Positions 1 to 16,266 of a DNA stretch of 64,000 nt are shown here, one piece after another. The stretch comes from Lineus longissimus (Eukaryota; Nemertea; Pilidiophora; Heteronemertea; Lineidae). Numbering within the stretch: the stretch's first letter is position 1; each line of letters starts with the position of its first letter. The DNA lies in contig NC_088315.1 of assembly GCF_910592395.1 (NCBI RefSeq), positions 14,555,808-14,619,807 on the forward strand, given 5' to 3'. The notes under the pieces were generated by a model that searched no databases, was not told the DNA's origin, and was given only the letters and a program-made list of their open reading frames with translations. The position numbers were made by a program, and so were the translations under genes.

Positions 1-999
1 ATGGAAGGCCCAACACCAGTAAGTCAAATTCAATCAATTGCACCTGAAACACAGGCAGTAATTGACACTGTAAACAGTTCAAACAAACCAATAGATAAAT
101 TAATTGATTCCAATGATGATGAACTTAAAACACTGGGTTTTACTGAATATGCCTTGAGAGAACTTAGAGGGTTAAAACAGGCTGGTGATGATCTAGCTAC
201 AGTAAAGAGGGATAAGGACATGCAAATAGAAAGCCTAGAAGAAGAACTTAACAGTAAAAAAAGAGAATATGCTATCCTAGGAGAAGAAAATGAAGTTCTA
301 AGAAATGACTTAATTAACTCTGGAGAAGATCATTCAGACGAAAAGGAAAATCTAATAATAAGAGAGGGAGAGTTGAAAAAGCAAATAGATGAACTAAATG
401 ACAAATTGCATGAGGAACAGTCAAAGGTATGGAGGTTAGACAATGACAGGGAGTCACAAACTAGAAGAATTAAACGTTTAATTGTTGATGTTCTAAAGAA
501 ACCAGATTCAACTATTCCTCTGAAGGATAGAATAAAGTTACTTTTTAAGACGTATGGTGTAACTATTAGCGCCATAATAACAGCTGTTGTAATGACACTT
601 ACAACTCTAGGTCTTAGTATCAGTAGTGCTTTAAGTGGTGCCACTAAATCTGTAAAACCAACTCCAGGACCAGGACCATCTCCAGGACCAGACCCAACTC
701 CAGGACCTACACCAGAACCTGGACCAAAACCATCAATACCAGATAAAGTAAAAGAAGGTCTTAAGAAGTTGGCTGAATGGTTGAAAGAACTAGCCAAGAA
801 ATCAACTGCAGCTTTACCTGGAATAATAGGGTCTTTAGTTTCATTTTTATTGAAATCAGTAGGTGCTGCTGTTGGATTTTTAGCCGAACATCTGATCATA
901 GCAGTTATTGCTATTGTGAGCTCCATAATCTATGGTTTAATAGAGGGTGTTAAAGCCTTAAAATCACGTAAAGCCTTAAAATCACGTAAAAGGTCTTAG
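1..999 (+). CDS. Polinton coiled-coil membrane protein with Pro-Gly repeat
   Basis: 332 residues, not a named family. Residues about 65-165 are strongly charged with heptad-like spacing, as in a coiled coil. Residues 188-215 form a hydrophobic membrane segment. Residues 219-245 are a Pro-Gly-rich linker of repeated P-G-P-x units. Residues 273-322 are hydrophobic and alternate with small residues. The C-terminus repeats a KALKSR unit twice through a direct DNA duplication at 956-988. Similar proteins with a Pro-rich linker and a Gly/Ala hydrophobic tail recur beside Polinton capsid genes from memory; a role in virion membrane interaction is only inference. The ATG is the first base of the window, so the true start could lie further left. 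Confidence 0.75.
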   Translation: MEGPTPVSQIQSIAPETQAVIDTVNSSNKPIDKLIDSNDDELKTLGFTEYALRELRGLKQAGDDLATVKRDKDMQIESLEEELNSKKREYAILGEENEVLRNDLINSGEDHSDEKENLIIREGELKKQIDELNDKLHEEQSKVWRLDNDRESQTRRIKRLIVDVLKKPDSTIPLKDRIKLLFKTYGVTISAIITAVVMTLTTLGLSISSALSGATKSVKPTPGPGPSPGPDPTPGPTPEPGPKPSIPDKVKEGLKKLAEWLKELAKKSTAALPGIIGSLVSFLLKSVGAAVGFLAEHLIIAVIAIVSSIIYGLIEGVKALKSRKALKSRKRS

Positions 1000-1059
1000 G
1001 TGGCCTTCTATCAAAACAATGTTTAAAAAATAATTATTATGTAAATAGAAGTGAATAGG

Positions 1060-2193
1060 ATGATTTCATTAAAAGACTATTTTAGTAAATGTAGCAATGA
1101 AAATCTTACTGGATTCCTTCGTCCTAGGGTTATGGATGGAAATTCTACATTCAATAAAAAAGATGACAGTGGAGAAGATGATAAGCCTACTCGAGCTATG
1201 CTCTCAAGACGAAGTCTGACTGAGACAGGCAAAGATGAAAACAACTTTCTTGTGCACAGCTCTGCTGTTAATACCAAAGGTATGCCAAAAATGAAAGAGT
1301 ATGACACCAGTACCATCGCCAAAGCGGAATTATGTAGAAATTGTAAAAGGTGGACACTATGTGAGTACCGAAAAAACTTGAATTCAGCAAGGTACGCAGC
1401 TAAAACTGTCAGGTATCAATTCTGCACCAATTGCAATTTGACTACTTACGACGATGATTTTAAAACTCTTGAGATCAATATTGACAACAAGACACATTAC
1501 TTTGACAGTATTCTAAGGAAACTTGGATGGAGGCGGCTGTCCGAATCGGCAGTTAAGTATTTAAAGGACTTTGTGGAATGGTATTTGCAGGGTTGCTTTT
1601 CAAGTTCCAGAAAATGCCTCAGTAAGCAGAGATATGAAAGTACTCTTCAGTCAGCCCTAAAAATGGGTATTAACACTCTCCCCTCTAAGTTATGTAACCA
1701 AGGGTTACATGGTGAAGCCATGCTTTTTAAATTTCACTGTGGGGAATATGACTGGTTTCTTGCAATAGAATTTATTAACAGGGCAATTGGTAAACCCCAA
1801 TTAACAGATGAGAATATCACTGACCTTAGACTAGTTTACTTTGCCTTCCTAAGATTTCTGCATTACTGTGGTGTGAAGGTCACCATTAACTACAAGGTAT
1901 TTTTACACCAAGCCTTTAAAACGCTGAAAATTGATTATGTAATATTTACACCTTTTTTAACCAACAAGGAGCGAGTAAATGATTTGGAGAGATTATGGTA
2001 TGATTTCACTCAAAGTATTTTCTTCCAAAATTACAAATTTGAGAAGGTATATGACCAGGATATTGACAAGCAGTTTGACGTTTTACTGAGTGCCAGTGCA
2101 GGTAGAGACAATAACTGCATCAGTAGTATTAAGTTTACACCAGCCGGACTTCGTCCTGAGAGCATAGCTCGAGCTAGTGTTAAGATGCAATAA
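1060..2193 (+). CDS. Polinton hypothetical protein with zinc-ribbon-like cysteines
   Basis: 377 residues from the ATG at 1060; the frame opens upstream only with GTG at 1051, which is unlikely as a start. Cysteines at residues 92, 95, 103, 122 and 125 form two C-x2-C pairs as in a zinc ribbon. The rest is probably a mixed alpha/beta domain that I do not recognise. Two copies of the Polinton double-hairpin repeat are translated in frame: one near residues 44-53, reading R-A-M-L-S, and one at the C-terminus in the opposite orientation, reading R-P-E-S-I-A-R. They leave the frame open. TAAATAGA lies shortly upstream of the start, as it does for the genes beginning at 4615 and 4672. Confidence 0.7.
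   Translation: MISLKDYFSKCSNENLTGFLRPRVMDGNSTFNKKDDSGEDDKPTRAMLSRRSLTETGKDENNFLVHSSAVNTKGMPKMKEYDTSTIAKAELCRNCKRWTLCEYRKNLNSARYAAKTVRYQFCTNCNLTTYDDDFKTLEINIDNKTHYFDSILRKLGWRRLSESAVKYLKDFVEWYLQGCFSSSRKCLSKQRYESTLQSALKMGINTLPSKLCNQGLHGEAMLFKFHCGEYDWFLAIEFINRAIGKPQLTDENITDLRLVYFAFLRFLHYCGVKVTINYKVFLHQAFKTLKIDYVIFTPFLTNKERVNDLERLWYDFTQSIFFQNYKFEKVYDQDIDKQFDVLLSASAGRDNNCISSIKFTPAGLRPESIARASVKMQ
1189..1220 (+). repeat. Double-hairpin repeat copy 1, inside a CDS
   Basis: Hairpins GAGC-TAT-GCTC (1193-1203) and AGAC-GAA-GTCT (1207-1217). The second stem differs from the consensus GGAC/GTCC at both arms, so pairing is kept. It is translated in frame. Confidence 0.85.
2145..2173 (-). repeat. Double-hairpin repeat copy 2, at a gene 3' end
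   Basis: GGAC-TTC-GTCC (2146-2156) followed by GAGC-ATA-GCTC (2160-2170), in the orientation opposite to copy 1. It encodes residues just before the stop at 2193. Confidence 0.88.
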
Positions 2194-2244
2194 AGTTGTG
2201 AAAACAGCATTTTGCACTTAACAGTCATTTTTCCATAATTTTAA

Positions 2245-3087
2245 ATGAATAATCAGCAAATGAACAGTCAGACATCTGCAGTGATTGAACAACAGATGAA
2301 ACAGATTGGTGTTATCATTCCAAACCCAGTCGGACACAGTCCTGAGAGCTTAGCTCGAGTTGGGGCTTCTAACCAACAGAACACTGGTAGTTACCAACAA
2401 AACAGAACTAACTTTCAACATAACTGCTCTACAAATCAACAAGTTTCAAACAAGCAGTTGAATAGTTCAAATTTAGTTAATCCCAATCAGGGAATAGTTA
2501 ATCCCAGTCAGGGAATAGTCAATTCTAGTTGGCAACTAGGCTCAACTAGCAATCAACAAAATTTGAACTATTTGACTGATAGTGGCCTTAAAGCCAAACA
2601 AGACTTAGAGATTCTAGTTGCAACTGGTAAAAGCAAGGATTTCCTTAATAAACAAATAACTTTTAATGACTTAGATAATATGACTGAAAAAGAAATCTTA
2701 AAACACCATAGAATGTATGAAACAAAGATGGCTGCTAGACTTAATGATTCTTTGGGTAAGACAGTACTTAAAGCTTACACTAAATTATCAAGGTGGTTAT
2801 TACCAATAGATGATGAAGATAATCTTTACCATGATCTTAGAAATGATTATTTGATAACTAACGAGTTGGATAAATGGCTTGGATGGTTGAGTTTGAGAAT
2901 GGGTGCACTAACTGCACTTGCTTCAACAACACTTATTACTTTAGGTCATTGTCATGAGGAATCATCTATGAATACATCGAGTATGACTGCATCAAATATG
3001 AATACACCAAATATGACTGTCTCTGAATGTGACAAACCAATAGATGAAAGTCTAGATATCACAGGTAGTGATGATAAACAAGACTAA
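2245..3087 (+). CDS. Polinton Q/N-rich protein with hydrophobic C-terminal segment
   Basis: 280 residues starting at an ATG within TTTTAAATG. Residues 1-110 are rich in Asn, Gln and Ser, with a short tandem duplication NPxQGIVN at about residues 79-92. A predicted helical region follows (about 120-225), then a hydrophobic stretch around 220-238. The C-terminus has N-T-x-x-M-T type repeats. Not recognised as a named family. A double-hairpin repeat is inserted in frame near residues 30-39, reading S-P-E-S-L-A-R. A single hairpin follows the stop codon at 3104-3114. Confidence 0.68.
   Translation: MNNQQMNSQTSAVIEQQMKQIGVIIPNPVGHSPESLARVGASNQQNTGSYQQNRTNFQHNCSTNQQVSNKQLNSSNLVNPNQGIVNPSQGIVNSSWQLGSTSNQQNLNYLTDSGLKAKQDLEILVATGKSKDFLNKQITFNDLDNMTEKEILKHHRMYETKMAARLNDSLGKTVLKAYTKLSRWLLPIDDEDNLYHDLRNDYLITNELDKWLGWLSLRMGALTALASTTLITLGHCHEESSMNTSSMTASNMNTPNMTVSECDKPIDESLDITGSDDKQD
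2331..2360 (-). repeat. Double-hairpin repeat copy 3, inside a CDS
   Basis: GGAC-ACA-GTCC (2332-2342) and GAGC-TTA-GCTC (2346-2356). The loops differ from other copies while the stems are kept. It is translated in frame. Confidence 0.87.
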
Positions 3088-3103
3088 ATTAACCTGGTTA
3101 TGA

Positions 3104-3114
3104 GAACTGAGTTC
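3104..3114. repeat. Short hairpin after a stop codon
   Basis: GAAC-TGA-GTTC lies 17 bases after the stop at 3087. It has the same 4-3-4 geometry as the repeat family. A smaller AACC/GGTT inverted repeat sits just before it. Confidence 0.55.
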
Positions 3115-3135
3115 CAATTAATTTGAGCAAGATAA

Positions 3136-3570
3136 ATGGAACTTGAAACTGTAACTGATACTACTAAAGTTTCAGTGTCTAAGAAACCTCGATCAGAGAA
3201 ACAATTAGCATGGTCTAGAGAACTGGGTAGAAGATCTAAGGAATTTAAGAGGATAAAAAAGGATAAGACGACATTTAAAGTACAGGACTCTGTCCCAAAA
3301 AACAGAGTTATGGAAAAGGAGGAAGAAGAAGTAGAGGAAGAAGAACCACAATCTCAAAATACTGATGTATCACTGCGTGAATCTACCAGTAATACCTATG
3401 TCTATGTACTAGGTTTAGGTGCCGTTATTTTAGCAGCATTCATTATGTTTAAGAAACTTCCTAAAAAAGTAAGTAAAGAGCAGCGATCAGGCTTGAATCG
3501 AGCTATGCTCTCAGGACAAAGTCCGAATGAAGTTAAAGAGAAGAAATGTACTATTCCTTTAATGGAATGA
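3136..3570 (+). CDS. Polinton small basic/acidic single-pass membrane protein
   Basis: 144 residues starting at an ATG in GATAAATG. The N-terminal half is Lys/Arg-rich (about residues 12-50) and is followed by an acidic run of glutamates at 57-69. A single membrane segment lies at about residues 89-107, then a basic stretch. The C-terminal part contains an in-frame double-hairpin repeat read as R-A-M-L-S-G-Q-S-P. The stop is 13 bases from the end of the convergent gene at 3584. The topology suggests a small virion or membrane protein; no family was recognised. Confidence 0.65.
   Translation: MELETVTDTTKVSVSKKPRSEKQLAWSRELGRRSKEFKRIKKDKTTFKVQDSVPKNRVMEKEEEEVEEEEPQSQNTDVSLRESTSNTYVYVLGLGAVILAAFIMFKKLPKKVSKEQRSGLNRAMLSGQSPNEVKEKKCTIPLME
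3497..3526 (+). repeat. Double-hairpin repeat copy 4, near a gene 3' end
   Basis: GAGC-TAT-GCTC (3500-3510) and GGAC-AAA-GTCC (3514-3524). This matches the family consensus and is translated in frame near the end of the 3136-3570 gene. Confidence 0.9.
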
Positions 3571-3583
3571 TCTCATCAGGTGG

Positions 3584-4615
3584 TCAGACTTCGTCTTGAG
3601 AGCATAGCTCGAGTCCGAGGTGCTTGTCTTCACCACAAGAGTTTAACTCTATTCGGACTTTGTCCTGAGAGTTTAACTCTATTCTTAACTCTAAAGAAAC
3701 CTCTGTTCCTCTGAAATTAACTAGCTTACCATTCTCATCAGTGATTTCGAATTTTATGTGATTAGTACACTTATTTATAGTTTTCTTACAATTCGGTTCG
3801 TATCGCTGCATTTTTATTTGGTCAGCATCTTCTACAGGTATGATGCAGAAAATGTTAGATGGTTTATTGTTGTAGAGGGTCTTAGCTTTGTCAACCAAAT
3901 TAGCTTGCAGGAATAGATATTTCCTGTAAAAGTTGAGTGGTCTTGTGGAGTAGTATTTTCCTTTCTTGGTGAATTTAGTTTGCTTAAAGCCAAACCACTC
4001 ATTCACCACTGTGATCTGTTTTTCTATCACCTCTCTTATGGTTTTGCTTATTTGAAAACCTTCTGTGTTTCTCTCAATCTTGATTTTTTCATTTTTATCT
4101 AACTTGTCTACTTTCAGAGGGTACTCTTTATCCTCTGTAAGTTCAAGGGTTATGTAATTATTGTTATCACAGTTGACCTTAACGTGGCTAATTCCAATTT
4201 CTTTTATGTATTTTTGCCATACCTCACAGAACTCACTTAAACTAAAATGTTGAGAGTATGGAAATGTGTATTGAGTAATGGTGTCTTTAGTTGTGGTAGA
4301 TTCATTTTCCAAATGCCGTTCGCAAATTTTCATGACTTCCTTTTCAAGTGTATCTGTTTCAAGTCCAGGAGCAAATAATGTCCTAAATTCATCCATACAC
4401 CATAATTGTTTATCTAAGGGCACATTTGTTGTAATTCTGGTTATTTCGACTAGAAATGAGAAAATCCTGACTCCCTCTGGTAGAAAATCACCTGTCCACC
4501 ATGAATTGTAAAAGGTTATCGATTTCAAAGTAATGGATTTTATGTCTAATTGGTCTGTTAAGTAGTACTCAAATTTGGCTTCATTACATTCTTGTTCATT
4601 GATTATGAAGTCCAT
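3584..4615 (-). CDS. Polinton protein, possibly a second minor-capsid-like beta protein
   Basis: 343 residues, ATG at 4615-4613. The N-terminal segment carries a hydrophobic strand followed by F-Y-N-S-W, resembling the start of Polinton minor capsid proteins. Near residues 285-310 it has an I-T-D-E-N-G motif similar to the I-T-D-x-x-G motif at the end of the penton-like protein at 12957. A jelly-roll virion role is inference from those two resemblances only. The last 35 residues are encoded by three degenerate tandem copies of the double-hairpin repeat (3585-3682) and are unlikely to belong to the original fold. It is transcribed divergently from the polymerase, with 56 bp between start codons. 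Confidence 0.62.
   Translation of the reverse strand: MDFIINEQECNEAKFEYYLTDQLDIKSITLKSITFYNSWWTGDFLPEGVRIFSFLVEITRITTNVPLDKQLWCMDEFRTLFAPGLETDTLEKEVMKICERHLENESTTTKDTITQYTFPYSQHFSLSEFCEVWQKYIKEIGISHVKVNCDNNNYITLELTEDKEYPLKVDKLDKNEKIKIERNTEGFQISKTIREVIEKQITVVNEWFGFKQTKFTKKGKYYSTRPLNFYRKYLFLQANLVDKAKTLYNNKPSNIFCIIPVEDADQIKMQRYEPNCKKTINKCTNHIKFEITDENGKLVNFRGTEVSLELRIELNSQDKVRIELNSCGEDKHLGLELCSQDEV
3585..3682 (-). repeat. Cluster of three degenerate double-hairpin repeats
   Basis: AGAC-TTC-GTCT (3586-3596) with GAGC-ATA-GCTC (3600-3610), then GAGT-TTA-ACTC (3639-3649), then GGAC-TTT-GTCC (3655-3665) with GAGT-TTA-ACTC (3669-3679). Stems GGAC to AGAC and GAGC to GAGT each carry matched changes in both arms. 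The cluster forms the 3' end of the minus-strand gene. Confidence 0.85.
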
Positions 4616-4671
4616 TTCTATTTAATTCAAGAGATTTATTGAATTTAATAAATTTTAATCTGATAAATAGA

Positions 4672-7600
4672 ATGACTGATAAGAATCAGAAAATACTTTG
4701 CACTACATGTGACAAGTACATATCCTACAATAATATGGCCATTCACAGGAGAACCAAAGGTCACTTAAGTAAATTAAATCCGGATTATGTCCCTATTGCT
4801 CAACCCCGAGCCCAATCACTGGTCCCTAAAACTATGGATAAGAAACTTGCATTTGAGAAAGATGAGCTAGATGGCATAAAGAAAGTGAGTGGAATAGAAA
4901 TAGTAAAACAATTTGGCAAGCCTGTAGTCACCATTAGTTTGAAGATTGACAGAGAAGCTAAACAAGTGTATGAATACAGAGATAAATTAGAGGAGGTATT
5001 ATTTCAACTCAATGATTACCATCACAAAATTAGCATATCAGTATTTGCTCAGTTTGATCGTCAGGGTGAAAGTGTAACACACCCCATTCAGCCCCCAATG
5101 GAAAGCATAATTTCAAGGAACCAGGCAATTTATGCCATAACCAACCAGTTAAACTACATTAAGACACAGATTGAGGAAAGGTACTTTCAAGGTTCTGGAC
5201 TTACTTTAAATAAAATAGAGTCTTGTAACATGACCATCTGTTCTTACAAGAGGTGTAAAGGTGGTCATTACACTAAATTACCATTTAAAACAAAAGCAGT
5301 AATAAATGTGAAATCAAATGACAATAAATGTTTTCTCTGGTCTTTATTGGCCGCTAAATATCTGAAAGAAAATCCAGAGAGTACATTAAATATTACTACC
5401 GATATGCTAGAAATGACTTCGTCACGAGAACAGAGTTCGAAAACTACTGATGTCGTAATCGAGCCTAGCTCTCAGTGCGGAGTACGAATAGACTCATTTC
5501 CTGTATGTATTCAAAAGGATATTCCTAAGATAGAGAGTGATAATAATCTCAAAATTGATGTGTTTAAATTGCAGAATGAATCGGCTAAGAGCACCTGTGA
5601 GGCAAAACTAGAACCTCTCTACCTGTCCAAGAATTATGATGATGATGATGTCATCGATCTGCTGTATTTCAAGGACCATTTCATGTACATAAGAGACATC
5701 AATCTTTTCTTCAGGACACTAGCTCATAGAGTGTATCTTTGCAGGAGATGCATGAATTACTTTTACAGGAAGTCAACACTAGATAATCATAAAAAGAAAT
5801 GTGGAGAACACGATTACTGTAAGATTACTTTGCCTCCACCTAACAGTAAATGGTCACAAATTAAATTTGAAAAACACTCATTCAAAAATAGAGTTCCGTT
5901 TGTGATCTATGCTGATTTTGAATCAATAAGCGAACCTTGTTCTTCTGCCAAAGGCAACATACCAGTAGTGTCAGTAGAGCCACCTATGGTGAAAGAACAG
6001 AATTTTAAGAAACTTTTTAAACAAAATGCATCAGCTGTTGGTGTTTATGTTCACTCAGACTACACACACCTTTACAGTAGCCAGTATGTGTCTAACAGGG
6101 GTGCTGATGTTGTAGATGATTTCTGTAATTGGTTAATCAGGATGGAAGAAAAATTCTCTAATTTATTGAACTGTAACTTTCCTCTAACAATGACAGATGA
6201 AGACTGGCATAAATATCAATTAGAAACACATTGTTACTATTGTAATCAACCTTTGGGATATGACAAGGTCAAGGATCATGATCACTACTGTGGTAGATAT
6301 CGAGGTGCTGCTCACAACTCGTGTAATTTGAATGAAAAGAAAGCTATGTTTGTTCCAGTGTTTTTTCACAATCTCAGTAATTACGATTCTCACTTATTTA
6401 TTAAAGAATTAATGACTAAGCTACCGAAGTACAAGAAACTGAAAATACTTGCCAAAACATCAGAGGAATACATTTCATTTCAGTTCGGTTGTTTCAGGTT
6501 TTTGGACTCGTACAGATTCCTGCAGTCAAGTTTAGACAACATAACCAAATCAATGTTGGATGATGATTTTAAAATTACCAGACAGCTGTTCCCAAATACC
6601 ACTGACTTTAAGCTATTGAGGAAGAAGGGTTCAGTACCTTACTCTTTTTACACATCACATGAAAGCTACAATGTTACTTACCTAGAAAAGTCTATGTTTT
6701 TTGACGAATTGAAAAATGAAATGGCACCTGATTCTGCCTATGATGAAGCTAAGGTAATATGGGATCATTTCAAGATCAGGAATCACGGTGAGTTCATTGA
6801 CCTCTACCTCAAAACTGATGTGATCCTTCTAGCTGATTTATTTGAGAAATTCAGGGATGTCAATTTGAACTACTTTCAGATAGATCCATGTCACTGTTAC
6901 TCGGCACCAGGCCTAACCTGGCAAGCTGGTTTGAAATACACAGGAATAAACCTAGAACTACTGACTGATACCAACATATTACTTACTTTTGAAAAGGCAA
7001 TAAGAGGTGGAATATCGGGTGTTATGGGCACAAGACATATCAAGGCCGATGAGAGTCATAAATTGCTGTACATCGATGCTAATAATCTTTACGGATGGGC
7101 CATGATGGAACCTCAACCCTATGGTAGTTTTGAAATGATAGATATTGATCCACTCGAGCTATGCTCTCAGGACAAAGTCCGACTTAACATGAATGCTATT
7201 AGTAAAGAGCAGATTATGGCAATTCCAAGTGATGGTGAGGTAGGGTATTTCTTAGAGGTGGATTTGGAGTATCCAGGAAATATTAAATTTAAGTCAAGGA
7301 ACTTTCCATTCTGTCCTGAATCTCTCTTTATTGAAGATGATGAATTAAGTCCTTACCAGAGGGAGTTACTGGGTGATGATAAAAGATCAAATGTAGAGAA
7401 ACTAATACTAACACAAAAGGATAAAACTAATTACATAGTGCATTACAGAATGCTACAGTTTTACCTAAAGCACGGAATGGTACTTAAGAGGGTTCATTCA
7501 GTGATAAGCTTTAAACAATCAAAGTGGTTAGCACCATACATTGATTTTAACACTAAAAGACGTATGGATTCTAAGACTGATTTTGAGAAAGACTATTTTA

Positions 7601-8403
7601 AAAACATGAATAATGCGTTCTACGGAAAGACTTGTGAGAATGTAAGGAACAGGGTTGAAATTGAATTGGTATCGGACGGGGAGAGAGCCAGGAATGTAAT
7701 GGCCAATCCCAGGTTTTCATCGATATGCGTATTTGACGAACATAATGCTGCTATTAGCATGAGGAAAACATCAATGAAATTCAACAAACCAATCTACATA
7801 GGAGCTGCCGTACTTGAATTGTCTAAATTATTAATGTATGAGTTCTATTATGAAGTTCTTCAACCATATTTTGGTGAGAAAAATATTGAACTACTGTATC
7901 TAGATACAGATTCTTTCGTAGTTAACATTAATACTGATGACTTAACTAAAGACTTAAAGGAGTTGAGACACTATTTTGATTTCAGTAATTATCCAAAAGA
8001 TCATACACTCTATGATACCAGTAAAAAGAAGGTACCAGGCTACTTTAAGGATGAGCTAGGAGGAGTAGAGATGACTGAATTCATTGCCCTGAGAAGTAAG
8101 ATGTACGCTTACAGGACAAAAGATTACGATTCTAAGAAATTGAAGGGTATTGCCAAGAATGTAGTAAGGAGAAATATCTCATTTGATGACTATGTTGATT
8201 GTCTTGAAACGAGTAGGTCATTTTACCACAAGATGAGACACTTAAGATCAGATAAACACCAAATCTATTTGGAAGAAGTTGACAAAAAAAGCCTCAGTCC
8301 TTTTGATGACAAGAGGTTCATACTTGAAGATGGAATAAGCACCTTACCATTTGGAATGTATTATGAAGGCTACATGGATTACAGCGATTCAAACTTCGCT
8401 TGA
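4672..8403 (+). CDS. Protein-primed family B DNA polymerase (pPolB)
   Basis: 1243 residues from the ATG at 4672; the frame extends to a TTG at 4639, which is unlikely as a start. It replicates the element using a protein primer. A C2H2 finger lies at residues 10-31 and a second Cys/His cluster near 355-380. The 3'-5' exonuclease has D-F-E at 414-416, N-x3-Y-D near 570 and Y-L-K-T-D near 712-716. An endonuclease-VII-like insert (C-Y-Y-C to D-H-D-H, about 522-550) is usual in Polintons. Polymerase motif A is D-A-N-N-L-Y-G-W near 802, motif B N-N-A-F-Y-G-K near 980, and motif C Y-L-D-T-D-S at 1076-1081. All catalytic motifs are intact. Two double-hairpin repeats lie in frame, near residues 248-272 and 828-837. 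Confidence 0.97.
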   Translation: MTDKNQKILCTTCDKYISYNNMAIHRRTKGHLSKLNPDYVPIAQPRAQSLVPKTMDKKLAFEKDELDGIKKVSGIEIVKQFGKPVVTISLKIDREAKQVYEYRDKLEEVLFQLNDYHHKISISVFAQFDRQGESVTHPIQPPMESIISRNQAIYAITNQLNYIKTQIEERYFQGSGLTLNKIESCNMTICSYKRCKGGHYTKLPFKTKAVINVKSNDNKCFLWSLLAAKYLKENPESTLNITTDMLEMTSSREQSSKTTDVVIEPSSQCGVRIDSFPVCIQKDIPKIESDNNLKIDVFKLQNESAKSTCEAKLEPLYLSKNYDDDDVIDLLYFKDHFMYIRDINLFFRTLAHRVYLCRRCMNYFYRKSTLDNHKKKCGEHDYCKITLPPPNSKWSQIKFEKHSFKNRVPFVIYADFESISEPCSSAKGNIPVVSVEPPMVKEQNFKKLFKQNASAVGVYVHSDYTHLYSSQYVSNRGADVVDDFCNWLIRMEEKFSNLLNCNFPLTMTDEDWHKYQLETHCYYCNQPLGYDKVKDHDHYCGRYRGAAHNSCNLNEKKAMFVPVFFHNLSNYDSHLFIKELMTKLPKYKKLKILAKTSEEYISFQFGCFRFLDSYRFLQSSLDNITKSMLDDDFKITRQLFPNTTDFKLLRKKGSVPYSFYTSHESYNVTYLEKSMFFDELKNEMAPDSAYDEAKVIWDHFKIRNHGEFIDLYLKTDVILLADLFEKFRDVNLNYFQIDPCHCYSAPGLTWQAGLKYTGINLELLTDTNILLTFEKAIRGGISGVMGTRHIKADESHKLLYIDANNLYGWAMMEPQPYGSFEMIDIDPLELCSQDKVRLNMNAISKEQIMAIPSDGEVGYFLEVDLEYPGNIKFKSRNFPFCPESLFIEDDELSPYQRELLGDDKRSNVEKLILTQKDKTNYIVHYRMLQFYLKHGMVLKRVHSVISFKQSKWLAPYIDFNTKRRMDSKTDFEKDYFKNMNNAFYGKTCENVRNRVEIELVSDGERARNVMANPRFSSICVFDEHNAAISMRKTSMKFNKPIYIGAAVLELSKLLMYEFYYEVLQPYFGEKNIELLYLDTDSFVVNINTDDLTKDLKELRHYFDFSNYPKDHTLYDTSKKKVPGYFKDELGGVEMTEFIALRSKMYAYRTKDYDSKKLKGIAKNVVRRNISFDDYVDCLETSRSFYHKMRHLRSDKHQIYLEEVDKKSLSPFDDKRFILEDGISTLPFGMYYEGYMDYSDSNFA
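5413..5487 (+). repeat. Two adjacent double-hairpin repeats inside the polymerase gene
   Basis: TGAC-TTC-GTCA (5414-5424) with GAAC-AGA-GTTC (5428-5438), then GAGC-CTA-GCTC (5461-5471) with GTGC-GGA-GTAC (5475-5485, one G-T pair). All four stems differ from the consensus in compensated ways. They are translated in frame between the N-terminal region and the exonuclease domain. Confidence 0.82.
7152..7182 (+). repeat. Consensus double-hairpin repeat inside the polymerase gene
   Basis: GAGC-TAT-GCTC (7156-7166) and GGAC-AAA-GTCC (7170-7180). It is translated in a different frame from copy 4, giving L-E-L-C-S-Q-D-K-V-R about 20 residues after motif A. Confidence 0.92.
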
Positions 8404-8606
8404 GTTGCAAAATCATTCTTAAACTAATGAATAGGGTGGTGCTGATGGTAGTGCTACTTGGTGAAATTCATCCCTAACACCAAAGTCATGATAATAGTGA
8501 TAGTGAATAACCACATTAGGATTAAGACTATTTAGTCGGACTTTGTTCTCGGGACCTTGTCCTAGTCGGACTTTGTCCTGAGAGCAGAGCTCGAGTCCTG
8601 TATGAT
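8404..8606. other. Convergent intergenic region
   Basis: 203 bp between the polymerase stop and the stop of the minus-strand gene at 8607. Apart from the hairpin cluster at 8527-8595, nothing is recognisable. Confidence 0.7.
8527..8595 (-). repeat. Double-hairpin repeat cluster in a convergent intergenic region
   Basis: GACT-ATTT-AGTC at about 8527-8538, then GGAC-TTT-GTTC (8538-8548, one G-T pair), GGAC-CTT-GTCC (8552-8562), GGAC-TTT-GTCC (8568-8578) and GAGC-AGA-GCTC (8582-8592). It sits between two gene 3' ends and so could serve both. Confidence 0.85.
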
Positions 8607-9263
8607 TTACTGAACTTTTAGTTTTTCTAGCATCTCTGTCTGTGCTAGTTTTTTTCCTTCTTCTAAAAAAGTCTTTTTAAGGGACTCTACATCGACATTG
8701 GAATTGGTCTCCCTTTGTTTTTTCCTAATGGCATTTTTCATGGAAATGTACTTCTCCTTCTTGAGTATTAAACCGAATTCCTCTGTAGATATGTGAGAAT
8801 CGGTTAAGGCTTTACTGACCAAATCATTGATTGTGTTAAGTTTGGAAATGGCCAGTTGTGATATCTTCTCATGCTTTTCAATTTTCCTAAGAATATTCTT
8901 TTTCTCCCAGCCTAAGGCTGATGAAATAATGGCACTACCTATTGTTACGCCACCCAAAGCTAAGCCTATCGGTGCCGTGATGACACCAGCTAAAGCGGAA
9001 ACACCAACAGAGCCAGCTGCAACGCTGGCAAAATTAAGGAAATGGCTAATGCCAGTTATCACATCAAAAGCTTTTTTGTATTTTAAAGATATCTTTCTCC
9101 TGCATTCAATCTCGCCCTCAAAAAACCTCTTGACATCACTAATTGAATTAAGCCTGAAAGACTGAGGGTTACTTTCTGTATGCTTTTCAGACCTTTCATA
9201 GTTTAATTGACTTTCAGAGTTTAAATTACTTAAATCTGGATAAACCTTGTTGTCTCCATCCAT
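8607..9263 (-). CDS. Conserved Polinton hydrophobic protein of unknown function
   Basis: 218 residues, ATG in TAATTAAATG. A charged N-terminal region is followed by a Gly/Ala/Ser-rich hydrophobic block (about residues 75-118) of the kind that can insert in membranes. A helical region with repeated K-L-N-T-I-N-D-L-V-S-K-A-L motifs (about 141-153) follows, then a basic C-terminus. Proteins with this arrangement recur in invertebrate Polintons from memory, without an assigned function. It is the last gene of a minus-strand run 11843-8607 with 4-88 bp gaps. Confidence 0.72.
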   Translation of the reverse strand: MDGDNKVYPDLSNLNSESQLNYERSEKHTESNPQSFRLNSISDVKRFFEGEIECRRKISLKYKKAFDVITGISHFLNFASVAAGSVGVSALAGVITAPIGLALGGVTIGSAIISSALGWEKKNILRKIEKHEKISQLAISKLNTINDLVSKALTDSHISTEEFGLILKKEKYISMKNAIRKKQRETNSNVDVESLKKTFLEEGKKLAQTEMLEKLKVQ

Positions 9264-9267
9264 TTAA

Positions 9268-9519
9268 TTAGTGGGAATAACTAGAATCAGTTGTTCTGTC
9301 ATTTCTAGTGTTTAGTGTTGATCTTACAGACACTACAGGTTTTTGAAGTACATTAAATTTTAAAGGTTTTTCTGACCCAGCAGGCCCAGCAGGTTTTAAA
9401 GGTTTTTCGGGACCAGGCTCCAACTTTGACTCTACTTCTGCCTCTAATTCTCTATGAAATCGTTCTAATCTTTCTTTCCAATTACGTGGTCGTTTTGTGT
9501 AACCCCAAGTTCTATTCAT
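9268..9519 (-). CDS. Polinton small basic Pro/Lys repeat protein
   Basis: 83 residues with the ATG in CTTAATTAAATG. The N-terminus is Arg/Trp-rich and basic. An acidic stretch follows, then two copies of an E-K-P-L-K repeat (around residues 46-56 and 57-70) encoded by a direct DNA repeat at 9354-9410. It ends four bases before the next start (9263). No known family; short low-complexity coding could be a linker or core protein. Coding status rests on its position, start motif and open frame. Confidence 0.55.
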   Translation of the reverse strand: MNRTWGYTKRPRNWKERLERFHRELEAEVESKLEPGPEKPLKPAGPAGSEKPLKFNVLQKPVVSVRSTLNTRNDRTTDSSYSH

Positions 9520-9538
9520 TTAATTAAGTAGAATAAAA

Positions 9539-10633
9539 TCAATTCACTGCAAAGAGTAAATTTCTTTCAAGTCTATTATTCAACTTAATCATCTCGTTTA
9601 TGATTTCTGTCTGACTACATATGTTAATGTTCTGGTTCATTCTCATGTTATTACTTAAATTCGATAATCTATCAAGCAGAATCATATTTTCATCACGAAG
9701 ATAATCCCCGAAATGCTGTGATATCACTATTTTCCAATCTGGTATTACATTCTGGTCTCGAAAGACAAACCAGTTTTCACTTCTCATCTTTACCATGAAA
9801 TCCATTGACCTATCCAATTGATCCTTAAATAGTGTGTAGTTTATTGTAGCACTCTTCTGTCTGTTTTCTGTCTTTTCCATTGGTCTCATGTTAAACCAAG
9901 CAAAGCACAGTTCAGGTTTATCTTTGAATTCCTTGATTGGTAAGACATGATCCAACTCTTCTTCTTCTATTCGAACTCTGTTCTCGGGACTTTGTCCTAT
10001 TGGAGATAGACTCCTCTGGTACTCTAACCACTGATGGAAGAAACTGTCTGTACATCCTAGATTAAATGAGGAATTACCGTTACACTCTCCCTTAGAAATG
10101 CGGTTTAGACCAACTCTAATTTTGTGTCTGTCTCTATTACCATTTTGGTCAAGGTAATCCTTTTTGTAATATGAATTAAAACATGATCTGCAGTTACCTC
10201 TATTTCCGTATTTACCAAATTCACCATCACTTAGTAATTTAATTTCGTAACATTTATTACATCCCTTGATTTTACTTGAACCACATTCTTTACAGTAATC
10301 AAGTAGTTTATTACGCCTGTTCTTTTCAAAATTAATTTCAGGTTTCTTTTCACAGCACTTAACACAATAAATTGTAGGTTGATTTTCCATGTTTTGATTC
10401 ATCATATTATTCTGATTTTCCATGTTTTGATTTAACATAATCTGATTTAAGATAAACTGATTTATCATATTTTGATTTAACATAATCTGATTTATCATAT
10501 TTTGATTTAACATATTATTTTGATGCAAATAATACAAAAACTTCTGAATATTTTGATTCATCATATTATCATGATTCATCATATTATTCTGATTCATCAT
10601 ACCATTTTGATTATCAAATATTGCTCCCTCCAT
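9539..10633 (-). CDS. Polinton zinc-finger HNH endonuclease-like protein with M/N/Q repeat tail
   Basis: 364 residues. Residues 11-83 are low-complexity N-Q-N-M-M repeats built from a degenerate 12-15 bp DNA unit. Three or four C-x2-C pairs (residues 90-151) follow, as in zinc-binding recombination nucleases. An HNH-like core reads L-D-H-V-L-P-I at 227-233, then F-N-M-R-P at 247-251 and E-N-R-Q-K at 256-260. This points to a metal-dependent nuclease; the substrate is unknown. A double-hairpin repeat is translated in frame at residues 210-222, immediately before the catalytic His motif. The start is in GAAAGAAATG, not TAAATG. Confidence 0.72.
   Translation of the reverse strand: MEGAIFDNQNGMMNQNNMMNHDNMMNQNIQKFLYYLHQNNMLNQNMINQIMLNQNMINQFILNQIMLNQNMENQNNMMNQNMENQPTIYCVKCCEKKPEINFEKNRRNKLLDYCKECGSSKIKGCNKCYEIKLLSDGEFGKYGNRGNCRSCFNSYYKKDYLDQNGNRDRHKIRVGLNRISKGECNGNSSFNLGCTDSFFHQWLEYQRSLSPIGQSPENRVRIEEEELDHVLPIKEFKDKPELCFAWFNMRPMEKTENRQKSATINYTLFKDQLDRSMDFMVKMRSENWFVFRDQNVIPDWKIVISQHFGDYLRDENMILLDRLSNLSNNMRMNQNINICSQTEIINEMIKLNNRLERNLLFAVN
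9971..9999 (-). repeat. Double-hairpin repeat inside the HNH gene
   Basis: GAAC-TCT-GTTC (9973-9983) and GGAC-TTT-GTCC (9987-9997). The first stem is a compensated variant of GAGC/GCTC. It is translated in frame next to the HNH motif. Confidence 0.86.
10385..10620. repeat. Degenerate short tandem repeat coding M/N/Q
   Basis: Many imperfect copies of a 12-15 bp unit (attttgattcatcat and variants) encode the N-terminal low-complexity tail of the minus-strand HNH-like protein. Copy number is likely to vary between insertions. Confidence 0.8.
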
Positions 10634-10680
10634 TTCTTTCTTTATTTAGTAGGACATTTTTTTTTTAAATTACGTTTTTC

Positions 10681-10706
10681 GAACTTGTTCTTGTGACTTA
10701 AGTCAC
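10681..10706. repeat. Double hairpin just downstream of the integrase gene
   Basis: GAAC-TT-GTTC (10681-10690) followed by GTGAC-TTAA-GTCAC (10693-10706), a perfect 14-bp palindrome. It starts 16 bases past the integrase stop on the minus strand. The layout matches the array at 14095-14225. Confidence 0.75.
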
Positions 10707-10721
10707 TTTAGAGACTTTATT

Positions 10722-11843
10722 TCATTTCAATGATTTGATATCAGAAACTGGTAACCATTCATTGAACTTATCACTATAACCCTTCCACTTCACTAATCCG
10801 TATTTCTTGCCTTTACTGGTCTTGTACCTTAGGATTTTCTCGATCTTGTACTCTAGCTGGTCAGGATTAGGAACATAGCTCAATTCCTCTTCATAGAAAT
10901 ATCCTTGAATTTCTTCTTTGTGGTAATCCTCAAGCTTGTAGACGATAGGGTGAGTAAAGATGATCTGTTTGATTTGGAACACCTCCTCAGTGTAGTTGGG
11001 CATGTAACCTTTACCAAAAATGGACTTGTACTTTGAAATTCTTACACTGTCACCTACTTTGTACTTTGGATTACCAAATGTCTCTTTGAGGTGAAGACCG
11101 TAAAGATTGTACCACACTGTTCCTTCGTTTTCCATCTTTCTGGCGTCTACAGGTTTCATACCTATTGATGAGTGAAATGTGTTATTGTAGCCGCTGACCA
11201 GGTCATCCAGAACGTCAATCCACTTGGCAGTCTCCTTAGCGGTGAAATAACGCCACATTTTTTCTTTAAGGGTTCTATTGAATCTCTCTACTACTGCTGC
11301 CTTCTTATCAGATTTTGTGGAGAACCATTCTATGTCATTTTCTGTTAAGAGTTCCTTGAAGTGTTTGTTGTAAAATTCTGTACCGTCATCAAACTGGATC
11401 TTTTCTGGTTTTGCTTCTCTGAAAATCAATTTGAATGCATCTCTGATTTCTTCTTCCCTCTTACTCTTAACTGCTAGAGCCCAAGAAAAACGACTAAATA
11501 GATCTATGACTGTTAAAATGAATCTGAAACCCTTATTCTTACTCTCGAATTTCTGCATGTCAACCAGATCAGCTTGCCACTGTTGATCGATGTACGATAC
11601 CATTGTCTTCCTGAAGGTGAATTTCTTAATGGCCGGTTTGTGTAGTTGGTGAGTTGGTAGTGTTTCTAGAAATTCTTTCACTTCTTTTTGTTTAATAAGT
11701 TTTCCTGAGCTCTGCTCTCGTGACGAAGTCATATCTTCCTTGACCTGTTTCCAGATTTTACTCAAAGAACTGTAAGCCACGGGACTCTCGGGGTTGTAGT
11801 ACAAATCCCTTAGATACTGCTGTGTGTCATCCTTTACATCCAT
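10722..11843 (-). CDS. Polinton retroviral-type integrase with chromodomain
   Basis: 373 residues. It catalyses integration of the element into host DNA. The RNase-H-fold core has D92 (Q-A-D-L-V-D), D152 (F-D-D-G-T-E-F) and E186 (V-V-E-R-F-N-R), so the DDE triad is complete with 33 residues between the last two. The C-terminal 42 residues are a chromodomain (Y-K-I-E-K-I-L to W-K-G-Y-S to N-E-W-L-P), which in other integrases binds methylated histone tails and directs insertion. A double-hairpin repeat is translated in frame at residues 38-46, ahead of the core. The start codon faces the ATPase start, four bases away. Confidence 0.95.
   Translation of the reverse strand: MDVKDDTQQYLRDLYYNPESPVAYSSLSKIWKQVKEDMTSSREQSSGKLIKQKEVKEFLETLPTHQLHKPAIKKFTFRKTMVSYIDQQWQADLVDMQKFESKNKGFRFILTVIDLFSRFSWALAVKSKREEEIRDAFKLIFREAKPEKIQFDDGTEFYNKHFKELLTENDIEWFSTKSDKKAAVVERFNRTLKEKMWRYFTAKETAKWIDVLDDLVSGYNNTFHSSIGMKPVDARKMENEGTVWYNLYGLHLKETFGNPKYKVGDSVRISKYKSIFGKGYMPNYTEEVFQIKQIIFTHPIVYKLEDYHKEEIQGYFYEEELSYVPNPDQLEYKIEKILRYKTSKGKKYGLVKWKGYSDKFNEWLPVSDIKSLK
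11706..11732 (+). repeat. Double-hairpin repeat inside the integrase gene
   Basis: GAGC-TCT-GCTC (11707-11717) and TGAC-GAA-GTCA (11721-11731). The second stem is a compensated variant of GGAC/GTCC that matches the polymerase copy at 5414. Confidence 0.86.
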
Positions 11844-11850
11844 TTAAATG
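11841..11850. promoter_or_regulatory. Palindromic back-to-back start CATTTAAATG
   Basis: A perfect 10-bp palindrome contains the ATG of the integrase (minus) and the ATG of the ATPase (plus), so each start lies in TAAATG. The two coding regions are four bases apart, so any promoter must lie inside the opposite gene or overlap both starts. Confidence 0.6.
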
Positions 11851-12460
11851 AGTGAAGTATTTATTTACGAGCCACACAATATGTTAATTTCTGGTGTTAC
11901 CAATTGTGGTAAGACATATTTTGCCCTTGACCTCTTAGAAAAAGAGTATCGGCACAAGTTCCAGAACATAGTCATTTTCTGTCCAACATATTTCAACAAT
12001 AAGACATATGAAAGGAAATGGATTTACCAAGACAAGAACGTCTACATAGTTAATCCCGAAGCTGTGCCCAGTAATTTGGACCTTGTGCTTCAGTTTGCTA
12101 CTCTGACCTTTGCTGGTTCTAACACATTATTCCTCATTGATGACTGTGCTAATTTGAGAGACACAAAAAAGAAGGTGTCCGAGTTATGTAATCTTGCCTT
12201 TTCCGGCAGGCACTACAATCTCACTGTTTGGTTACTAGTTCAGAAGTACAATTCAGTTGTCAAGGACTACAGAGAGAACATAAGAATTTTAGTCCTGTTC
12301 TTTAACAAGGATGAATCAGCCATGAAAGATGCCTTAGAAGAAAACAGTGTGATTCCTAAGGAGAAAAGACATAGAAGAACTTAAGATGAAAAAAGGATCA
12401 AAACTGATCATTAGACTACAACATCCATTTGGATTTACTCTTTCCCATCAAAAATCTTAG
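11848..12460 (+). pseudogene. FtsK/HerA-type genome-packaging ATPase, frameshifted near its C-terminus
   Basis: The uninterrupted frame runs 11848-12384 (178 residues). The Walker A motif is G-V-T-N-C-G-K-T at residues 16-23 and Walker B L-F-L-I-D-D at 94-99, as in A32-like ATPases that pump DNA into capsids. The frame stops at 12384. Conserved-looking C-terminal sequence ending in an R-x-x-H-P-F-G type motif continues in the +1 frame to a stop at 12460, so about 33 residues are displaced. The shift lies between about 12350 and 12375, near an AAAA run. It may be an inactivating indel or a sequencing error; a programmed shift is less likely because no slippery signal is obvious. Without the shift, length would be near 203 residues, usual for Polintons. 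Confidence 0.85.
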
Positions 12461-12468
12461 TCCCGCTT

Positions 12469-12489
12469 CTGATCATCAGGACTGTGTCC
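12469..12489. repeat. Double hairpin between convergent gene ends
   Basis: CTGA-TCA-TCAG (12469-12479) shares one base with GGAC-TGT-GTCC (12479-12489). It lies at the 3' ends of both the ATPase (stop 12460) and the minus-strand gene ending at 12476. Confidence 0.75.
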
Positions 12490-12934
12490 GATCAGTGGTC
12501 TTAGTCTTTCTAACCCTAGTAAAATAATAAATTATTAACCCTAAACCACTAAGTCCTAGGATAATCCATAGGTACTCGTATTTCTTCATTTCATCACTAG
12601 GTTGGTAGTAATCACTTAATTGTGGTCGCTGAGGTAGTACAATAGTTCTTTCTGGATGTAAATGATTGTAAACAGTAAGTGCTGAATCAGTATTGTTAAA
12701 ATCAATAGAAGCGTCTCTTTCTCTCTTTAATTCAAGATTAACAAAGTCAATAGTACTCTTTCTATGCTCCTTCCATTCCGTGGAGGCCTTCTGTAATTGC
12801 TCCTGAGCCAAATCATGTCTTTTCACTTCATCTTCATAACCGTTTTTGTCTAGTGACTTGAAAAGGTAACCGGATCCAGTGAATGCTAATCCATTGATTA
12901 TTGCAGATCCAAATAACATACCAATGCCAGCCAT
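12476..12934 (-). CDS. Conserved Polinton membrane protein of unknown function
   Basis: 152 residues, ATG in GAAATTAAATG. It has a hydrophobic Gly/Ala-rich N-terminus (residues 1-27, A-F-T-G-S-G-Y-L-F motif), then a charged helical region starting K-R-H-D-L-A-Q-E-Q-L, then a C-terminal membrane segment near residues 122-141 with basic residues behind it. This architecture and the K-R-H-D-L-A motif recur next to the penton gene in Polintons from memory. Its function is unknown; a minor virion protein is plausible. The last residues are encoded by a hairpin pair. Confidence 0.75.
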   Translation of the reverse strand: MAGIGMLFGSAIINGLAFTGSGYLFKSLDKNGYEDEVKRHDLAQEQLQKASTEWKEHRKSTIDFVNLELKRERDASIDFNNTDSALTVYNHLHPERTIVLPQRPQLSDYYQPSDEMKKYEYLWIILGLSGLGLIIYYFTRVRKTKTTDRTQS

Positions 12935-12956
12935 TTAATTTCCACGAATTTTAATT

Positions 12957-13733
12957 TCAATGATGTGTCGGACTTTGTCCTGAGAGCATAGCTCGAGTTA
13001 ATACCAATTGGTACTGTACATTATGACCATTAAGATCGATGATGTCACCTTTTTCATCAGTTAAGCGAATATTCAGCTTATTGAATCTTGGTTTACAGGG
13101 AATTGCTATTGGTTTCTCAAATGTGTATGCTATTAAATCTCCAAAATTAGCTTCCTTTATTGGTCTTGTGGTTAGCACATCAGATGCTTCACCATTACTT
13201 AATACACTAGTAGATTCGATTATGTCACAGTGAAAAACAAAATGGTTAATTGGTCTAAAATTGATGGGTTTCTCGCTTACAACATCATCCTTACTTTTAT
13301 TGTCTAAAGGGTAAGGCCATTCTGATTTCATGCCAAATAATTCATTACTTTTACCAAGAAAATAGATCTGATAATGCGCCTCATTTTTTCTCTTTAGGAA
13401 GTGTAAGATGGCCTTACCTGTTGGTTCTTCAAGGTCAAATCTGACAGCACCTCTACTCATACTATTTTCTTTCAACTTATCCGCAAATACTTTTGAAAAG
13501 CTCTGTAGGTCATAGAGACCATCTGGTAGCGTAATCTCTGCCACATCAAACCCCTTAACTTTGATTCGGTTATTCTCCCTGGCTGCACTTATGTTGTAGA
13601 ATGTACAAGGTATTACTGCAAAAGTTAAAGTGATGCTACATGCATCCTGAATTTCAGTCTTGAGATTGACTGTTAAATCACTTGAACTCTGATCTGGATA
13701 GTCACTTGAATCTATGTTCATTACAGTAACCAT
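12957..13733 (-). CDS. Minor capsid (penton-like single jelly roll) protein
   Basis: 258 residues, ATG in CTTAACTAAATG. The beginning (V-x-M-N-I-D-S-S-D) and the end (I-R-L-T-D-E-K-G followed by Q-Y-Q-L-V-L) match the pattern of Polinton minor capsid proteins, which build the capsid vertices. Beta-strand-like alternation runs throughout. The last 11 residues come from an in-frame double-hairpin repeat and probably extend the native C-terminus. It follows the normal Polinton position, next to the major capsid and in the same orientation. Confidence 0.82.
   Translation of the reverse strand: MVTVMNIDSSDYPDQSSSDLTVNLKTEIQDACSITLTFAVIPCTFYNISAARENNRIKVKGFDVAEITLPDGLYDLQSFSKVFADKLKENSMSRGAVRFDLEEPTGKAILHFLKRKNEAHYQIYFLGKSNELFGMKSEWPYPLDNKSKDDVVSEKPINFRPINHFVFHCDIIESTSVLSNGEASDVLTTRPIKEANFGDLIAYTFEKPIAIPCKPRFNKLNIRLTDEKGDIIDLNGHNVQYQLVLTRAMLSGQSPTHH
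12969..12998 (-). repeat. Consensus double-hairpin repeat at the penton gene 3' end
   Basis: GGAC-TTT-GTCC (12970-12980) and GAGC-ATA-GCTC (12984-12994). Identical in stems to the copy at 7152, inverted. Confidence 0.9.
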
Positions 13734-13790
13734 TTAGTTAAGTAAATTTTCGTTTTCAAATTAACCTTTTATCAAATAAGTAAATTATTC

Positions 13791-14027
13791 TTACTTCATA
13801 ATATTTCTGGGTAGGATTCCTTGATCGTAAAGGTACTCTAATGTTCCATTACTAATAGCTACAGTTCCTCCCAGTTTAAGAATTTCCTCTAGGTCGGCCT
13901 GACTTGGGGGACCAATATTGATTCTCAAGAACCTTTTCAGTAACATAGAGTAACCAATTGTTGTTGATGCCAACAGTAAACTTTGATACAGTGTATTTAT
14001 GATATCTTTCTTTCCTGGTGTATCCAT
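13791..14027 (-). CDS. Small conserved Polinton protein of unknown function
   Basis: 78 residues, ATG in AGTAATTAAATG. A hydrophobic N-terminal part (L-L-L-A-S-T-T-I-G-Y-S) is followed by G-P-P-S-Q-A-D-L-E-E-I-L-K-L-G-G, a short motif I associate with small ORFs beside Polinton capsid genes. Function unknown. It lies between penton and major capsid on the same strand. Confidence 0.65.
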   Translation of the reverse strand: MDTPGKKDIINTLYQSLLLASTTIGYSMLLKRFLRINIGPPSQADLEEILKLGGTVAISNGTLEYLYDQGILPRNIMK

Positions 14028-14094
14028 TTAATTACTTAGAAAATCACTAGTAAAACTCATTATCTAGTATTTAGTATTTAATTTAGTGTTGTAC

Positions 14095-14225
14095 GAACTT
14101 TGTTCTGCAACTAATGTTGTAGTGAACTTTGTTCTTGCAGCACCTCAGTGCTGGAGTGAACTTTGTTCTTGCAACACCTTAGTGTTGGAGTGAACTTTGT
14201 TCTTGCAGCACCTCAGTGCTGGAGT
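14095..14225 (-). repeat. Tandem array of four double hairpins at the capsid gene 3' end
   Basis: Units at 14095-14123 (29 bp), 14124-14157, 14158-14191 and 14192-14225 (34 bp each). Each has GAAC-TTT-GTTC and a second hairpin: CAAC/GTTG in unit 1, CAGCAC/GTGCTG in units 2 and 4, and CAACAC/GTGTTG in unit 3. The difference between units 3 and 2 is compensated on both arms. The last bases code the end of the major capsid protein. Confidence 0.9.
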
Positions 14226-16136: not shown

Positions 16137-16266
16137 AGAATAGTAGTATTGTGGTGGATGGTTCTTTGGGGGTTGTAGGCTAATTTGGGGCAAAAGACCT
16201 GTAAGGTCTTTGGTCAAAAGGGCCTAAAACATAACCTAGTTCCTACCACCACAATACTACTATTCT
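16137..16266. mobile_element. 130-bp hairpin MITE
   Basis: Perfect 21-bp terminal inverted repeats (16137-16157 and 16246-16266; AGAATAGTAGTATTGTGGTGG). No coding capacity. No clear target duplication. Confidence 0.7.

Follow-up and report, generated by a model that had tools for sequence, protein, structure and literature searches.

The window analyzed here, a stretch of 64,000 nucleotides from contig NC_088315.1 of the nemertean Lineus longissimus, contains in positions 1-16266 most of one Polinton, which encodes a DNA polymerase B (PolB), an integrase with a chromodomain, a packaging-type ATPase and a probable capsid protein. This report concerns the short double hairpins dispersed through this Polinton; very probably they are copies of a mobile micro-element that has no genes of its own and spreads within Polinton genomes.

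The left end of the Polinton lies upstream of the window, in a separately fetched stretch (L180), and by arithmetic from the coordinates the whole element is 18,526 bp long. Polintons (Mavericks) duplicate 6 bp of their target. The carrier is assigned to this group by its PolB, retrovirus-like integrase, ATPase and capsid genes (the capsid match lying below its cut-off), as well as by long terminal inverted repeats (211 bp each, 100% identical) and the flanking 6-bp repeat TTTGGT outside both ends. Its mapped features in the window are as follows:

4672-8403, plus strand: PolB of the protein-primed type (PF03175, E 1.3e-17)
10722-11843, minus strand: integrase with chromodomain (PF00665, E 9.4e-12; PF00385, E 1e-7)
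11848-12384, plus strand: packaging-type ATPase (PF04665, E 7.1e-15)
14213-15415, minus strand: probable major capsid protein, a weak match (PF16903, E 0.0053, below its cut-off)
16056-16266, minus strand: right terminal inverted repeat, 211 bp, with 100% identity to its left counterpart at L180:549-759

A Family of Double Hairpins

A perfect double hairpin is defined here as a 4-3-4 hairpin, a 3-nt spacer and a second 4-3-4 hairpin. Fourteen occur in window positions 1-15500 and none in 15500-64000; dinucleotide shuffles of the element (n = 500) gave a mean of 0.49 and a maximum of 3, and other spacer lengths from 0 to 8 never yielded more than 3 in the element. Twelve of the fourteen are members of one family, to which two further members with one G-T pair each (5461 and 8538) belong; of the remaining two, the one at 3090 is a divergent member, whereas that at 5932 could be a chance occurrence. 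When a pairing-blind weight matrix with independent columns was trained on the 14 family members, it recovered exactly these 14, all at 31.7 bits or more; the next-best site, outside the Polinton, scores 6.0 bits. The original prediction of at least 12 such sites dispersed through a Polinton was thus an understatement, and all the arm variants and loops that it listed are present in the window.

The family members are equally divided between the two orientations (seven each). Direct repeats of 3 nt at a fixed distance of 30 flank 10 of the 14 copies exactly, and across all copies 37 of 42 flanking bases match, a value reached by none of 100,000 permutations; the triplets vary from copy to copy (ACT, AAT, GCT, AGT, and ATT). 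Members with the spacer TCG, TCT or TCC constitute a second type. The members, with their flanking triplets and the open reading frames (ORFs) in which they lie, are:

1189-1221, plus strand: member, ACT-C-hairpin 1-TCA-hairpin 2 (AGAC/GTCT)-G-ACT; within ORF2
2142-2174, minus strand: member, GCT...GCT; in ORF2 near its end, with tandem extra copies here in other Polinton copies
2328-2360, minus strand: member, ACT...ACT; within ORF3
3086-3118, minus strand: divergent member, GAAC/GTTC and TAAC/GTTA, flanking triplets one base apart; just past the ORF3 stop
3496-3528, plus strand: member with the consensus body, AAT...AAT; within ORF4
3582-3614, minus strand: member, AGAC/GTCT, ACT...ACC; in ORF5, whose stop codon comes from the insert
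3651-3683, minus strand: member, GAGT/ACTC, AAT...AAT; in ORF5
5410-5442, minus strand: member, GAAC/GTTC and TGAC/GTCA, TTT...TTC; in PolB
5457-5489, plus strand: member, GTGC:GTAC with one G-T pair, AAT...AAT; in PolB
7152-7184, plus strand: member with the consensus body, ACT...ACT; in PolB, site empty in other Polinton copies
8534-8566, plus strand: member of the second type, spacer TCG, one G-T pair, AGT...AGT; between PolB and ORF7, site empty in other Polinton copies
8564-8596, minus strand: member, opposite in orientation to its neighbor at 8534-8566, with the AGT triplet common to both
9969-10001, plus strand: member of the second type, ATT...ATT; in ORF8, site empty in other Polinton copies
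11703-11735, plus strand: member, TGAC/GTCA, without matching flanking repeat; in the integrase gene
12966-12998, minus strand: member with the consensus body, ACT...ACA; at the end of a penton-like gene
10677-10709, plus strand: possible relative, GAAC-TT-GTTC, TTG, TGAC-TTAA-GTCA between TTT repeats, 30 bp net as read from the sequence

The divergent member at 3086-3118 has kin in the fetched stretches (25 copies).

Genomic Number and Habitat

The assembly searched comprises 391,118,348 bases in 30 contigs. The consensus 25-mer has 359 exact copies genome-wide (control, 0), and a degenerate pattern has 3,482 matches (reversed control, 0). The 43 stretches fetched comprise 42 that surround matches and one from the left end of the carrier Polinton; together with the window, this sample amounts to 44 stretches, 241,522 bases, 464 members and 120 site groups. 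Among the 450 members in the fetched stretches, 448 adjoin DNA like that of the window's Polinton, and the other two lie in the Polinton's left part, one in L180 and one in DNA 98% identical to it (L178). Four scattered or divergent matches chosen for re-check (L181-L184) also adjoin Polinton genes, some of them distant (ORF8, 63% identity; ORF2, 47%; PolB, 52%). The family is restricted to Polinton DNA in every place examined, which covers a part of the 3,482 matches. Host control was provided by 47.7 kb of the window, with a best score of 9.3 bits. One insert in ORF8 is common to L181 (921-945) and the window (9973-9997); the surrounding DNA is 73% identical, yet the two 25-bp sequences are alike except for one loop base, so that this is either an old insertion with strong conservation or a case of homogenization.

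In viral contigs, the strict pattern has no matches. A looser pattern marked 14 viral-contig stretches with one match each and 111 stretches among other genome contigs; these loci look like chance, since they hold at most two perfect double hairpins each (63 in 960,642 bases overall). Protein-based scans outside the genome with PolB, the PolB core and the ATPase found no relative, and PolB motif patterns marked 6 and 1 stretches, the first 6 of which have no tblastn match to window proteins at E 1e-3.

Filled and Empty Sites

The left and right flanks of each member were searched separately in the other stretches. Flank pairs lying 27 bp apart represent filled sites (3715 pairwise cases) and those that overlap by 3 represent empty sites (2171), followed in frequency by pairs 57 bp apart, corresponding to two copies (726). 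In 60 of the 120 site groups the site is empty in another Polinton copy, which has one target sequence instead of two; this grouping may split one site or count tandem copies as sites, and the 34 groups with an assignable place on the window correspond to 29 positions (recounted by hand).

The net gain per insertion is 30 bp, i.e., ten codons. The same step emerges when the motif is not used: a comparison of 42 stretches with the window gave 155 distinct insertions or deletions (indels) of at least 6 bp, among which 30 bp is the commonest size (35), with larger multiples at 60 bp (8) and 90 bp (1), and 32 of the 35 indels of 30 bp carry a double hairpin, compared with 4.6 after shuffling. Arrays with a member every 30 bp, in alternating orientation and with common flanking triplets, are found at window positions 8534-8596, L133:1992-2082 and L178:1125-1215, as though fresh insertions occurred at the borders of existing copies.

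Junctions and Target Preference

In the members of the first type (42 polymorphic groups), position 1 of the flanking triplet is the same on the left, on the right and at the empty site in 42/42 groups, and position 2 in 38/42. The third base on the left is always T, and differs from the empty site (A, C or G) in 9/42; on the right, the third base follows the empty site in 6 of those 9 departures. The second type (18 polymorphic groups) has the mirror-image junction, with positions 2 and 3 the same in 18/18 and 17/18 and the right first base departing in 8/18. These junction bases at filled and empty sites indicate that two bases are duplicated and that one base belongs to the unit. The 30-bp gain is best explained by a unit of 28 bp together with 2 bp of duplicated target. 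The preferred target is A-N-T, in that first-type empty sites have A first in 34/42 and T third in 33/42 (recounted). Our first reading had been a 3-bp target duplication; the empty sites led to its replacement by 2 bp plus one element-borne base.

The consensus body is found with AAT (10 groups), ACT (7) and GCT (1). The occurrence of one body with several different repeats indicates that each insertion creates its own repeat instead of bringing one along, and argues against copying through shared bases. Such copying is the essence of an alternative in which template switching during Polinton replication, at short shared bases, would disperse the double hairpins, with hairpin-templated repair re-making the arms and no dedicated enzyme being required. 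Template switching would explain why the target T equals the terminal T of the element (33/42 first-type empty sites have T), and it is consistent with tandem arrays in alternating orientation and with the frequency of two-sided arm changes (see section "Pairing and Covariation"). However, it predicts agreement between donor and target repeats, contrary to the three repeats around the consensus body, and the fixed 30-bp step also tells against it; we regard it as doubtful, while still giving it some weight.

The target duplication and preference also resemble those of DNA transposons, so that the unit could instead be a miniature inverted-repeat transposable element (MITE), i.e., a cut-and-paste DNA transposon shortened by deletion to a minimal remnant and mobilized by a transposase of the host. 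Yet pairing between the ends of the 28-bp body is limited to one base pair (no search for a longer relative was made), every place examined is Polinton DNA, and the configuration in which both repeats remain and the insert is gone (gap 0) accounts for one pairwise case compared with 2171 clean empties, which gives no sign of regular cut-and-paste footprints. A MITE origin is therefore improbable.

Pairing and Covariation

Across the 14 window members, all 112 arm cells pair (110 Watson-Crick and 2 G-T), 4 of the 8 stem pairs change on both sides, and the covariation score is 0.319 versus 0.129 for shuffled members, a score reached by none of 500 shuffles. The arms thus change together in the window, as originally predicted, but the pattern is weaker outside the window, where broken arms are not rare. 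For 100 distinct 25-mers, 729 of 800 cells are Watson-Crick, 28 are G-T and 43 are mismatched, with two-sided Watson-Crick changes numbering 48 versus one-sided changes numbering 28 (to G-T) and 35 (to mismatch). By the refutation test set out in the original prediction, unpaired changes are thus not rare, yet they are fewer than column shuffling produces: Watson-Crick cells make up 91.1% of these 25-mers versus a mean of 81.5% and a maximum of 83.8% in 1000 column permutations. Genome-wide arm counts, which cover TGAC endings and the A-C mixed form of stem 1, gave TGAC with the ending GTCA 234 times versus 16 other endings (6 of these G-T), and the A-C mixed form 19 times.

Pairing marks the variants that spread. 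Among variants found in at least two site groups 31/38 are paired, compared with 35/62 of one-group variants (p 0.016), and the difference persists when only isolated (non-tandem) copies are counted (13/14 multi-group versus 19/31 one-group variants; p 0.038). Within single site groups, variants depart from the majority by mismatches (24 changes), G-T pairs (21) and two-sided Watson-Crick changes (21), the last of which may include replacement by another variant. At isolated sites, within-site differences are lower in stems (0.015) than in flanks (0.031; p 0.039), and loop differences (0.079) lie above those of flanks but not significantly (p 0.14). We read this as a paired fold that is needed for spreading, after which inserted copies may decay, while stem conservation of some extra degree remains. 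The original prediction had attributed the compensated changes either to selection for structure or to a copying process that re-creates both arms; a dispersed family and a copying process are retained here, and what it overlooked is that the sites are insertions with target duplications.

Reading Frames

Twelve of the 14 window members lie in reading frames. The 27 coding insertions that can be placed on the window are all stop-free, and they fall in all six orientation/phase classes (8, 1, 6, 4, 1, and 7), whereas 48 of 162 readings of the same bodies over all six frames hold a stop. By arithmetic, 27/27 stop-free insertions would have a chance near 1 in 10,000 if they were independent, a figure that is overstated because tandem neighbors share phase, the true one being weaker. 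The stop codon of ORF5 is supplied by the insert at 3586 together with one flanking base.

The location of 12 window members in reading frames could suggest a conserved peptide motif of Polinton proteins, with the DNA pattern as a by-product. The frames refute this: the coding insertions occupy all six classes and other members are intergenic, leaving the peptide motif with virtually no probability. Alternatively, the double hairpins could be functional Polinton sites under selection, such as packaging or replication signals or the 3' ends of transcripts, for which a hairpin rule of the Mimivirus type is described in the passages cited (PMC5413956). Several members do have a stop codon less than about 100 nt away, and stems are more conserved than flanks; however, half of the site groups are empty in another copy, and many members, in both orientations, are within PolB, ORF8, the integrase and ORF3, which makes functional sites very improbable. 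As specific readings, a conserved peptide and a gene-end signal were both rejected on account of the frames and the empty sites.

A Proposed Mechanism

Insertion with target duplication, the target preference, the 30-bp step, stop-free entry into genes and the Polinton habitat in every place examined are shown by the comparisons above. The mobile unit is about 28 bp long and consists of a terminal T and C, a hairpin of 11, a 3-nt spacer, a second hairpin of 11 and a terminal G. It enters a short target, preferably A-N-T, of which A-N is duplicated and the following T supplied by the element; with two bases duplicated and a unit of about 28 bp, every insertion adds 30 bp. The rest is inferred: the folded form, either single-stranded or extruded, may be what is recognized, and movement is probably copy-like rather than cut-and-paste. 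It may take place during Polinton DNA replication, with the aid in trans of a nuclease or recombinase that is perhaps encoded by the Polinton, after which the inserted copies would lose their pairing through mutation.

Two candidates for the mover can be named. ORF8 (9539-10633) appears by eye to be HNH nuclease-like but has no Pfam match of this kind at E 0.1, and PolB contains a weak endonuclease VII-like segment (PF02945, 20.2 bits; cut-off 23.6). A less likely mover is the integrase of the Polinton itself, since the repeat flanking the Polinton is 6 bp long, as opposed to 2 bp here. A bolder proposal, which we advance tentatively and put at somewhat less than even, is that the 28-bp unit, recognized by its double-hairpin fold, transposes by means of the Polinton's own replication or nuclease proteins; it would then be a parasite of the Polinton and among the smallest transposing units, with a whole-codon length because its only habitat is densely coding.

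Several observations weigh against a mobile micro-element. The moving enzyme is represented by candidates named from sequence only, and precise loss is compatible with the empty sites alone. The 3-nt repeat is exact in 66 of 120 group representatives, with one mismatch in 40 and more in 14, and 3 of the 35 indels of 30 bp have no double hairpin. Tandem arrays, in which local recombination can copy units, hold 215 of the 464 members. Broken arms occur in 34 of the 100 distinct 25-mers, 7 of them found in at least two groups; folding of the single DNA strands is weak, with energies of -2.2 to -4.6 kcal/mol and z values between -1.8 and +0.5, and of the eight members folded, one (5461) departs from the drawn structure at its optimum.

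Relation to Known Mobile Hairpins

Our best reading is that the closest kin of the Polinton family would be the mitochondrial double-hairpin elements (DHEs), for which Paquin et al. (2000) are cited, and the GC clusters of yeast mitochondria. The passages cited describe the DHEs of fungal mitochondrial DNA as two adjacent short hairpins, dispersed and thought to be mobile, that are mostly intergenic or in rRNA genes (PMC10085805, PMC7218506), and those of Allomyces as lacking flanking duplications (PMC2800124). In the Polinton family, too, two adjacent hairpins are the whole unit, but it sits in nuclear Polinton DNA, in protein genes, and with 2-bp duplications. It works like a mitochondrial DHE, yet is not a member, because of its location and the reported lack of duplications in Allomyces. 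Yeast GC clusters (GC42) are characterized in the cited text as short mobile hairpin-forming sequences of 42 nt, mostly intergenic, flanked by direct repeats of AG or ACT, with presence/absence polymorphism and with loops that vary more than stems (PMC4478555). The Polinton family resembles them in having ACT among its repeats and polymorphism in 60/120 site groups, and differs in its 28-bp length, its fixed 30-bp step and its occurrence within the protein genes of a virus-like element in the nucleus.

Rickettsia palindromic elements are palindromic mobile DNA of ~150 bp, inserted in frame in protein genes and bearing a conserved peptide, according to the part of the source relied on here (PMC10969869); by contrast, the Polinton unit has 28 bp, occurs in all six orientation/phase classes and has no one-frame peptide. 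Repeated hairpin-forming elements of sponge mitochondria, some of them in genes without frameshift, are likewise reported, with the mechanism left open in the cited passages (PMC2800124); they share repeated hairpins and in-gene insertion without frameshift with the Polinton family, and differ from it in being mitochondrial. Short hairpin-prone inserts in protein genes are a further likeness, found in the byps, which are skipped by the ribosome. Byps are named for the mitochondria of Magnusiomyces in the passage cited (PMC8211752). Unlike byps, the Polinton family does not need skipping, given its open frames and ten-codon step.

Searches of an open-access library yielded nothing on such units in Polintons. 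Within the parts of the literature cited here, mobile double hairpins otherwise come from mitochondria only, where their mode of movement is open. The present system lies in nuclear virus-like DNA and offers copies in the thousands, numerous comparisons of filled with empty sites, and exactly defined junctions, so that target, duplication and structure become testable. Inserts of ~28 bases are remarkably small mobile DNA units, and they provide a route for scattering ten-codon peptides through viral proteins.

Other Features of the Window

An Rfam scan of window positions 1-16000 gave no family, and a solved-structure search for PolB gave nothing useful. The terminal repeats of the Polinton (16056-16266; L180:549-759) contain a 21-bp inverted repeat ~110 bp apart, so that the ends could fold back. 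Beyond the Polinton, reverse transcriptase and endonuclease ORFs at 49410-51715 and 61188-63596 are retrotransposon remains (PF00078, PF03372).

Other adjacent hairpin pairs, at 1256-1282 (ACAGC/GCTGT with ATACC/GGTAT) and 5932-5956 (GAAC/GTTC with TGCC/GGCA), may be family or chance. A further hairpin family is present at the end of the capsid gene (14094-14222), as 34-bp units in tandem that carry a different double hairpin, GAAC-TTT-GTTC followed by CAGCAC-CTCA-GTGCTG; one copy in this array reads CAACAC-CTTA-GTGTTG, with both arms and the loop changed.

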